64,000 nucleotides of DNA from contig CM039464.1 in assembly GCA_022414725.1 (NCBI GenBank), positions 45,232,312 to 45,296,311 of the forward strand, given 5' to 3'. The notes beneath the pieces were generated by a model that was not told the DNA's origin, searched no databases, and worked only from the letters and a program-made list of their open reading frames with translations. The position numbers were made by a program, and so were the translations under genes. This DNA is from Microglena sp. YARC. Its lineage: Eukaryota; Chlorophyta; Chlorophyceae; Chlamydomonadales; Chlamydomonadaceae. Shown one piece after another: positions 20,086 through 58,760 of the stretch. How positions within the stretch are numbered: position 1 is the first letter of the stretch; each line of letters begins with the position of its first letter.

Positions 20086-20161
20086 CTTGGCAATCTTAAC
20101 TTTCGATTTCACAGTGGCCACATATTGGGTGCCGAAGTAGTTTCCTCTGGTCTCGGGAGAT
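20086..20161 (-). CDS. glycosyltransferase exon 8 (residues 1815-1840), probable
   Basis: Acceptor CTTACAG at 20162; first base completes the Arg codon, then SPETRGNYFGTQYVATVKSK and VKIAK. Donor AAG|GTGAGA at 20085, phase 0. Identified by phase and splice signals plus a nearby decayed copy of its acceptor; I see no family motif in it. Confidence 0.6.
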
Positions 20162-23100
20162 CTGTAAGTGTTGAACAGTGTTCACTTAAACTCTAAGAAG
20201 ATGGTTCAAGGGGTGAGGGTGAGGGTGAGGGGTGGGGGTAGATGGGTGCCAGGGTTTAAACCCTAAACCCTAAACCCTGCCGAAGTAGTGTGCCGAAGTA
20301 GTGTAGTAGCTGTAAGCGTTGAACAGTGTTCAGTTAAAGTTGAAGTATATGGTTGAAGGGGTGAGGGTGAGGGTAAGGGTGTGGGATGGGGGTAGGTGGT
20401 TCAAGGGGTGTTTATTTATTTATTCAAGTTTTTTTTATATATTTATATATTTATTTATGAGGTTGAGGGTGAGGGTGTGGGGGGGTAGATAGTTCAATGG
20501 GTGAGGGTGAGGGTGAGGGTGAAGGTGAGGGGGGGTAGATGGTTCAAGGGGTGAGGGTGAGGGTGAGGGTGAAGGTGAGGGGGGTAGATGGTTCAAGGGG
20601 TGAGGGTGAGGGTGAGGGTGAAGGTGAGGGGGGGTAGATGGTTCAAGGGGTGAGGGTGAGGGTGAGGGTGAAGGTGAGGGGGGTAGATGGTTCAAGGGGT
20701 GAGGGTGAGGGTGAGGGTGAGGGTGAGGGTGAGGGTGAAGGTGAGGGGGGTAGATGGTTCAAGGGGTGAGGGTGAGGGTGAGGGTGAAGGTGAGGGGGGT
20801 AGATGGTTCAAGGGGTGAGGGTGAGGGTGAGGGTGAAGGTGATGGGGGGTAGATGGTTCAAGGGGTGAGGGTGAGGGTGAGGGTGAGGGTGAAGGTGAGG
20901 GGGGGTAGATGGTTCAAGGGGTGAGGGTGAGGGTGAGGGTGAAGGTGAGGGGGGGTAGATGGTTCAAGGGGTGAGGGTGAAGGTGAGGGGGGGGTAGATG
21001 GTTCAAGGGGTGAGGGTGAGGGTGAAGGTGAGGGGGGGTAGATGGTTCAAGGGGTGAGGGTGAGGGTGAAGGTGAGGGGGGGGGTAGATGGTTCAAGGGG
21101 TGAGGGTGAGGGTGAGGGTGAAGGTGAGGGGGGGTAGATGGTTCAAGGGGTGAGGGTGAGGGTGAAGGTGAGGGGGGTTAGATGGTTCAAGGGGTGAGGG
21201 GTGGTGTAGGGGGTTAGATGGTTCAAGGGGCGAGGCTGAGGGTGCGGGTGGGGGGGTAAGCTCATCCGTCAGCGCGCGGTTAAGTTGGGAGCTTTGCCGC
21301 CCCTTGCAAAGGTGAAGGGTGACTACGGTACTTGGGAAACCCAAAGGGGGTGCAGAACTACATTTTGACTACACACAATCCCTAGGCTTGTTCAAAAGTC
21401 TTTGGATTCTTCAAAAAAATAAATCAGGATAGTAACATTCTTCAACCACAAAGTTACTATTAAATGTGAGTGCTTGTGTGATGATTTATTTTATGCACGG
21501 CCCATCATATTGAAGCTTTGACAAGGCAGATGCAAGCAAGTTGGTGATTGTTTCCATTGGGCTAGTCAAGGAACCTGGGTGTTTGGGGCATGCCACAAGT
21601 CCCCTCTATTACACTATGCCCCCTCTCCCCAAATTCCCTGTTGCATGCATGGATGTATATTGAAGTCCAGGCTACATAACATGGTGTGTTACTCTGATGT
21701 TGGTGTGCGCCGTGGGCACACATGCTCACTTGGATGCCTCTAGTCTCTATTTACTAGCACCCTACATGAGCACTGAGGAACTTGCATGGAACACCATCCC
21801 CCAGAGACAGTTCAGATTTGAATGGGTATCTCGTGTGCATGCAACAAGAGTCTAGGATACAAACCATGCCCAAAACACTTGAATCCCACCGTGCTACGAC
21901 ATGCTTACGGGGACTTGAAAGCGGCGAAATACAAAAAGGGCCGAAGCCCCGTGGTATAGATGAAACATAAAAACCTGTCTACAGGACCTGGCTCGGCTCG
22001 GGGGGTTGGGGGGGTATTTTTGACTAGTTCAACCGGACCCATGCGTCGCCATGCAGCGACGGAATGGCGAAGCGTCGCACAAAATAAAAACAGTGAAGAC
22101 TTCATGAGCACTTGTATATGAGTAAATGAGTAAAATGTATCTTCATCCACCTTAGATCCGAAGCCCACCCACCCTGAGCAAGGAATTCAGCCGCTCAAAC
22201 TCTAATGCCAAGATTCTGCCAGTGGCAGCTGGTGAGTAACCCTATACAAATCGCTGTGCCATCAACACTCTAGACACCTACCTACCTACCCACCCATCAA
22301 CACTCTACACACCTACCTACCTACCCACCTACCTACCTACCCACTCACCTACCTACCCAACCACACACCTACCTAACTACCCACCCACCTACCCACCTAC
22401 CTACCCACCTACCTACCTACCCACTCACCTACCTACCTACCCACCCACACACCTACCTAACTACCCACCCACCTACCCACCTACCTACCTACCTACCCAC
22501 TCACCTACCTACTTACCCACCCACACACCTACCTAACTACCCACCCACCTACCTACCCACCTACCTACCTACCCACTCACCTACCTACCTACTCACCCAC
22601 ACACCTACCTAACTACCCACCCACCTACCCACCTACCTACCCACCTACCTACCCACTCACCTACCTACCTACCCACCCACACACCTACCTAACTACCCAC
22701 CCACCTACCCACCCACCCACCTACCCACTCACCTGAGCAAGGCATTCAGCTGCTCAAACTCTTGTGCCAAAATTCTGCCAGTGGCAGCTGGAGAGTAACC
22801 CTATGCAAATCGCTGTGCCACCCACCTACCCACCCACCCACCCACCTACACACTCACCTGAGCAAGGCATTCAGCCGCTCAAACTCTTGTGCCAAGATTC
22901 TGCCGGTGGCAGCTGGAGAGTAGTGATCCACCATTCGCCTCCTTGCAAGCTTTCCCTTCTCTGCTGCATCCCCAGGGTTGTTGAACACATAGCGCATGAC
23001 CTGGCAATATATATGAGATATGTATTCTTATTATTATTATTTATGTATTTTATTTTCACGAGTCTTAGCATCCCCTGGGTTGTTTAACACATAGCGCATG

Positions 23101-58591: not shown

Positions 58592-58760
58592 ATGGTGCCC
58601 CAGAGTTCATCACGAAACGCTGTAGATGGTGCAAAAATGTTTCAAGAAACGTTGTCAGCACTACGGACGATGCCCGAGTGTTATTCTAGAAGCTGCAAAC
58701 AGTGCCCTAGAGTTCTTCAAGAACTTGAAATTGAACTTGGTTACATTGCTTCATCCAGCA
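58592..58760 (+). repeat. 3' flank with decayed copies of the terminal exon region
   Basis: Three diverged 45-55-bp units with AGAAGCTATAAATGGTGCCC / AAACGCTGTAGATGGTGC / AGAAGCTGCAAACAGTGCCC, each echoing the last codons and stop of exon 5. Probably 3' UTR. No polyadenylation signal identified. Confidence 0.6.

Follow-up and report, generated by a model that had tools for sequence, protein, structure and literature searches.

Three kinds of system come closest to the arrangement reported here. In the potato RdRp gene, PMC4974935 describes a tandem duplication across an intron-exon boundary that made an additional spliced intron and an inserted exon, the two copies differing at ten nucleotides. 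The AGGT model of intron creation is reviewed in PMC3443670. The introns of Chlamydomonas and Volvox are described in PMC3887541 as having the highest tandem-repeat density, with more repeats toward the intron-exon junctions, and coding repeats there are mostly of 3 or 6 bases; the long introns of Chlamydomonas relatives are treated in PMC8226300. Searches of open-licence papers turned up no junction-copy arrays as such.

The locus studied here shares some features with each of these systems. Like the duplication in potato RdRp, its duplications are direct and tandem and take in an intron end together with the start of the next exon, and duplicated segments span an intron-exon boundary in 32 copies at 11 of 22 junctions. 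Whereas the potato case is a single duplication, copies here sit within existing introns, in many cases as arrays, next to about half of the tested junctions, and the intron positions of the peroxiredoxin, as far as seen, do not differ among three paralogs. As in the AGGT model, tandem duplication multiplies splice-like sites, but the model duplicates exon sequence to create an intron, whereas the segments copied here are junctions that already exist, and no new intron was seen. The introns are rich in tandem repeats, as are those of the other green algae, yet the available passages of PMC3887541 describe no repeats with exon sequence and splice-site copies, and our profile of copies has no peak at the junction. 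Introner elements are dispersed among many genes; in contrast, a genome-wide search with one probe, exon 3 of the peroxiredoxin, in which the tool skipped very common words, found 8 places: the exon itself, its four nearby copies, the exon in two paralogs, and a fragment of 46 bp on C1. On this one probe, we rejected introner-like dispersed intron-making elements. The locus also differs from tandem exon duplication of the kind that yields mutually exclusive exons, because for none of the 13 exons was a whole copy with both splice sites found at E ≤ 1e-3, the 20- and 30-bp peroxiredoxin exons being near the detection limit.

The window, by which we mean the whole 64,000-nucleotide stretch analysed (C3:45232312-45296311), comes from an assembly of 568 Mb in 2,390 contigs. 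The genes modelled in it are a 2-Cys peroxiredoxin (Prx) on the plus strand and a GT4 glycosyltransferase (GT) on the minus strand (Table 1), and both models, of five exons for Prx and eight found exons for GT, read through. All Prx introns are GT-AG, and the product of 223 aa is identical over its full length to the EukProt protein P0001, a separate annotation. The GT model runs from 46613 to 20086 in a stop-free frame of 1857 aa, in which the exon 2/3 boundary is one pick among alternatives; its conserved pieces, when joined, match GT4 families in Pfam. GT exon 3 adds to this protein an insertion of about 900 low-complexity residues built from repeats. The Prx microexon with its flanks matches the paralog on C2 at 29 of 29 bases. 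Scanning the window for Rfam families and for tRNAs yielded no matches.

Table 1. Exons of the two genes and stretches carrying copies of their junctions, in window positions.
Feature	Positions	Strand	Basis
Prx exon 1	47452..47637	+	gene model; protein identical to P0001
Prx exon 2, 20-bp microexon, without junction copies	49022..49041	+	gene model, junction probes
Prx 99-bp tandem array, 7.1 copies; units hold exon 3 acceptor and about 22 exon bases	49529..50244	+	
Prx copy of exon 3 acceptor and first 177 exon bases, 92% identical, in-frame TAA	50465..50690	+	
Prx exon 3	50787..51094	+	gene model
Prx exon 3 donor junction copies (72, 42, 42, and a weaker 49 exon bases)	52119..52735	+	BLAST, junction probes
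Prx exon 4 acceptor junction copies, three, each with 39 exon bases	54701..55140	+	junction probes
Prx exon 4	55325..55452	+	gene model
Prx exon 4 donor junction copies, two	55599..55830	+	junction probes
Prx exon 5, stop codon included	58562..58591	+	gene model
Copy of Prx stop-codon/3' region 58574-58616, score 41 (below junction threshold of 44)	58681..58723	+	
GT exon 1, internal repeats in frame	45078..46613	-	gene model
GT exon 2 acceptor junction copies, four, up to 58 exon bases	44304..44745	-	BLAST, junction probes
GT exon 2, 3' boundary uncertain	43618..44303	-	gene model
GT exon 3, low-complexity, internal repeats, 5' boundary uncertain	40584..43281	-	gene model
GT 155-bp array; exon 4 acceptor junction copies, two, 12-13 exon bases	37304..37750	-	junction probes
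GT exon 4	37158..37303	-	gene model
GT exon 4 donor junction copies, two, 84 and 69 exon bases	36707..37004	-	BLAST, junction probes
GT exon 5 acceptor junction, two distant copies, 8.3-8.4 kb upstream in transcript sense	36436..36626	-	
GT exon 5 acceptor junction, near copy, 19 exon bases	28263..28340	-	junction probes
GT exon 5	27959..28172	-	gene model
GT exon 5 donor junction copies, two, and short piece of a third	27592..27922	-	BLAST, junction probes
GT exon 6, without junction copies	25132..25203	-	gene model, junction probes
GT exon 7 acceptor junction copies, six to eight by threshold; 35 exon bases in 5/6	23068..24669	-	
GT exon 7	22858..23000	-	gene model
GT exon 7 donor junction copies, two, each with 65 exon bases	22167..22797	-	BLAST, junction probes
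GT exon 8, last found, stop not reached	20086..20161	-	gene model

We searched each intron with junction probes of up to 60 exon and up to 60 intron bases, accepting copies with a score of at least 44 that cross the junction by at least 6 bp on each side. The earlier note, made from the sequence alone, had described decayed copies of the junctions of both genes that lie on the same side and in the same orientation as the original, and this description held: the 32 same-side crossing copies occur at the acceptors and donors of Prx exons 3 and 4 (A3, D3, A4, D4) and at A2, A4, D4, A5, D5, A7, and D7 of GT, with none on the other side, none in reverse complement, and none in shuffled introns (one block-shuffle per intron) across the 22 junctions. 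A looser cut-off (score 40, at least 5 bp) raised the count to 36. The exons that the note had named are borne out for GT exons 2, 4, 5, and 7 and Prx exons 3 and 4, but not for GT exon 8, where a broken copy visible by eye fails the junction test, nor for the acceptor of Prx exon 5, which has no passing copy; that exon instead has the copy of its stop-codon end at 58681-58723, whose score of 41 is under the junction threshold. Junction probes found copies of the microexon acceptor and donor in none of the three Prx paralogs.

A BLAST search of the window with exon sequences alone returned 30 pieces outside the 13 exons, derived from Prx exons 3 and 4 and GT exons 2, 4, 5, and 7. Twenty-six of these come within 4 bases of an exon end, all on the matching side and in the matching orientation, and the remaining four are internal parts of GT exons 5 and 7, one of them inverted (exon 7, 25942-25976, plus strand). 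By eye, this sole inverted exon fragment is contained in an inverted duplication in the GT introns (23840-24120 / 25860-26110).

The exon part of the junction copies measures 6 to 84 bp, plus one of 177 bp, and their identity ranges from 76% to 100% with indels present; one copy of the GT exon 4 acceptor is 100% identical over its length, and the others reach up to 97%. The graded decay noted earlier is seen in 6 of 11 families, in which identity drops steadily with distance, but not in the other families. By hand assignment, junction-copy stretches make up about 25% of the intron length of the two genes (7,751 of 31,425 bp). Within a family the exon breakpoint tends to be constant, at 35 bp in five of six acceptor copies of GT exon 7 and at 39 in all three acceptor copies of Prx exon 4, and some families have two breakpoints (22 and 177 for the Prx exon 3 acceptor, 72 and 42 for its donor). 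Because copies of one junction tend to share their breakpoint, a few founding events and array expansion suffice, and on the simplest reading each junction would have undergone one or two such events before its array grew. The proposal that introns here grow by repeated duplication across exon-intron boundaries can be kept for part of the growth, which left arrays of decoy sites, but repetition across the boundary itself is unnecessary when the copies have breakpoints in common.

Junction copies recur beyond the two neighbouring genes in which the earlier note had described them. The Prx paralog on C2 (L027) has copies at 4 of 7 junctions and a second paralog on C3 (L028, which matches the protein P0002) at 2 of 8, all of them same-side. 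Prx and L027 have copies at the same four of seven shared junctions, for which chance alone gives 1 in 35. Copy number differs among the three genes, being 2 in Prx, 2 in L027, and 4 in L028 at the exon 4 donor and 3, 1, and 0 at the exon 4 acceptor. The copies in the window are closer to their own exon (68 of 72 positions) than to the paralog exons (58 and 55), with 162 of 177 against 131 and 129 in a second case; either they postdate that split, then, or they have been homogenised. The copies in L027 and L028 match the exons of both members of the pair about equally, and some of them may predate the split between these two genes. Exons 2-4 measure 20, 308, and 128 bp in Prx, L027, and L028 alike, and the intron positions observed are the same in all three, so no new intron was made there. 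With copies that reach 6-177 bp into the exon, this constancy led us to reject AGGT-type intron creation for the Prx introns, and the suggested link to AGGT duplication does not fit.

We also examined three further genes, a hand-picked sample chosen by eye from arbitrary stretches and with exon edges set by hand, which appear to be spermidine synthase-like (L011), peroxidase-like (L021), and M20 peptidase-like (L017). In the spermidine synthase-like gene, 4 of 7 junctions have copies, and exon breakpoints recur (47/47 and 45/45); its first donor (GTTCGG) is out of frame with the next exon and is doubtful. Both junctions of the peroxidase-like exon have copies, including the longest junction array that we saw, a donor-junction array on the minus strand of L021 at about 6.8-7.8 kb with a unit of about 65 bp and ten crossing copies. 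For the M20 peptidase-like exon a single junction was tested, an acceptor chosen from two AGs separated by 10 bp; it has a copy, compared with just 5 of 120 points nearby. A search for the Cpn60/TCP1 family gave 86 pieces in 23 clusters, with eight overlapping pairs; four of these share an exact exon end (to 1 position) on the expected side, and the other four are ambiguous.

Comparison with the surrounding DNA shows how common such copies are. Direct copies cross 11 of 22 junctions and 76 of 150 intron points; for intron points that avoid short-period arrays the figure is 106 of 250, and in three intergenic ranges 59 of 150 points have such a copy. By a raw, uncorrected measure, a direct duplicate within 3 kb covers 11 of 23 junctions (counting the donor of GT exon 8), compared with 10.6 ± 2.5 for shifted positions. 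A 60-bp probe shifted away from the junction finds copies in 11 to 15 of 22 cases at distances of 10 to 400 bp into the intron and in 11 of 22 at the junction itself; on the exon side the counts are 8 of 16 (30 bp), 4 of 14 (60 bp), 2 of 10 (80 bp), and 2 of 7 (100 bp). Copy coverage thus forms an intron plateau that fades into the exon, peakless at the splice site. In six loci pooled, with spans and probe lengths that vary slightly between loci, 24 of 47 junctions have copies where 22.3 are expected from intron points of the same loci (P(≥ observed) = 0.35). The idea that splice junctions are special sites for duplication is not upheld by these data.

In the window, local direct duplications account for 46% of intron bases and 54% of the remaining bases outside exons. 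We extended the comparison to an arbitrary sample from six large contigs, 26 stretches of 10 kb taken at round coordinates; in these, a direct duplicate within 3 kb exists for 41% of non-N bases and an inverted one for 3.5% (pooled, raw and uncorrected values), and the direct share per stretch has a median of 38% and a range from 2% to 100%. Among tandem arrays listed by TRF, with overlapping rows of one array counted, periods divisible by 3 account for 12 of 14 rows inside exons versus 44 of 98 in introns, as expected from the same duplication process under selection. A control at sites other than splice sites is only suggestive: the one downstream copy of the Prx stop codon falls below the threshold, and neither two start codons nor the stop codon of L028 yielded any.

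We consider it probable that local tandem duplication is pervasive, that selection on exons filters it, and that the junction copies are its visible edge. Slippage or unequal exchange would duplicate short segments regardless of splice sites, and a duplication within a conserved exon would be purged unless it fell in frame in a tolerant stretch. When a duplication crosses an acceptor, the downstream copy would keep the whole exon and the upstream copy would turn into intron; at a donor, the upstream copy would keep the exon and the downstream copy would become intron. The orphaned copy might then multiply and decay like other intron tandem arrays, with splicing presumably continuing to use the outermost pair of sites, and both P0001 and P0002 are consistent with outermost sites. 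Tandem direct duplication combined with an intact-exon filter accounts for the same side and the same orientation. When we simulated tandem duplications of 30-200 bp placed at random and required that the real exon stay intact, 1,011 junction copies were same-side and 0 on the other side, a split that follows from the filter as coded. The share of simulated cases with a copy was 0.48-0.61 within the intron and dropped from 0.60 to 0.40 across 100 bp of exon, more gradually than in the real data. Since the same-side rule can follow from selection, a junction-directed mechanism is not needed. What we observe directly is that duplications cross the tested junctions about as often as they cross intron points and that junction copies are same-side, partial, and mostly diverged.

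Several observations nonetheless go against general duplication and would fit duplication targeted to junctions, in which AGGT protosplice sites, transcription-linked breaks, or R-loops favour junctions and introns grow mainly from their ends. For inverted crossing copies within 3 kb the counts are 47 of 250 among intron points, 16 of 150 among intergenic points, and none among the 22 junctions, half of which have direct copies; a plain duplication model does not predict this zero, although the intron points with an inverted copy may cluster in a few inverted repeats and so represent a small effective number. Once junction-derived stretches and short-period arrays are removed, the direct background falls to 35% (105 of 300 points), compared with 50% of junctions (P = 0.11). 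The M20 peptidase-like acceptor has its copy in a low-duplication region, the same four junctions are hit in Prx and its diverged C2 paralog, and an excess of tandem repeats near intron-exon junctions, above all in Chlamydomonas and Volvox, has been published (PMC3887541). The thin non-splice control also counts against general duplication. Against targeting stand the flat profile and the pooled count, and the breakpoints lie 6-177 bp inside exons. A junction hotspot is accordingly not supported, with the absent inverted copies and the lowered background as caveats, and we regard targeting as unlikely.

Two other explanations are less probable again. That decoys are kept for splicing, as alternative sites, for recursive splicing, or as exon-definition buffering, is very improbable. 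Of 36 decoy copies, 32 retain the GT or AG, compared with 79% of neighbouring dinucleotides (932 of 1,182), so decoys are not preferentially destroyed, but this difference, beyond which nothing speaks for functional decoys, is small, and the alignments were required to cross the junction, which favours matches there. Moreover, copy number at the exon 4 junctions varies between paralogs, the long Prx exon 3 copy contains an in-frame stop, and P0001 and P0002 fit the outermost sites only. The least probable explanation is an assembly artefact, in which long reads that were misjoined or left uncollapsed gave rise to spurious local duplications; the identical GT exon 4 acceptor copy, the high identity of some others, and the use of a single assembly are compatible with this, but a false duplication would be nearly identical, whereas the 32 copies spread down to 76% identity with indels, occur at several loci with different breakpoints, and leave both coding frames in the window open.

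If pervasive duplication filtered by selection on exons is the correct account, it offers a simple and testable description of one route of intron lengthening, namely tandem duplication anywhere together with an exon-integrity filter. What still surprises is the seeming tolerance of near-perfect decoy splice sites, and our guess is that decoys are ignored for want of a partner site at exon distance. Should duplications across junctions be just as frequent as those within introns, the arrival of a competing splice site would carry little cost. We tentatively propose that splice-site duplication may be near-neutral in this genome, junction-crossing duplications being neither enriched nor depleted relative to intron-internal ones, with near-identical decoys, as many as about ten, next to roughly one junction in two and a spliceosome rule that reliably takes the outermost pair. 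If true, the genome would be a large natural experiment on splice-site choice. For splicing research, it presents a natural competition among several near-identical sites, of which the annotated winner is the outermost in both proteins checked, and gene finders and exon-level homology searches should be expected to meet false exon ends in such genomes.

The genome is green-alga-like and filled with repeats, and the junction copies most likely reflect DNA that has been duplicated locally almost everywhere. The window also contains a satellite array at 9831-16130 with a 41-bp unit, 153 copies, and 95% matches, and GT intron 4 includes a 6-kb stretch (29100-35500) of GC-rich palindromic units of the GGGTAAGCTAGTACCGCC type. 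These units resemble the palindromic repeats of volvocine organelle genomes, and the stretch is possibly organelle-derived or a palindromic repeat family. Among the arbitrary stretches, one on C1 (L006, C1:50000001-50010000) has almost no local duplication (2%) and, by eye, virus-like ORFs; it is perhaps an endogenous large DNA virus.
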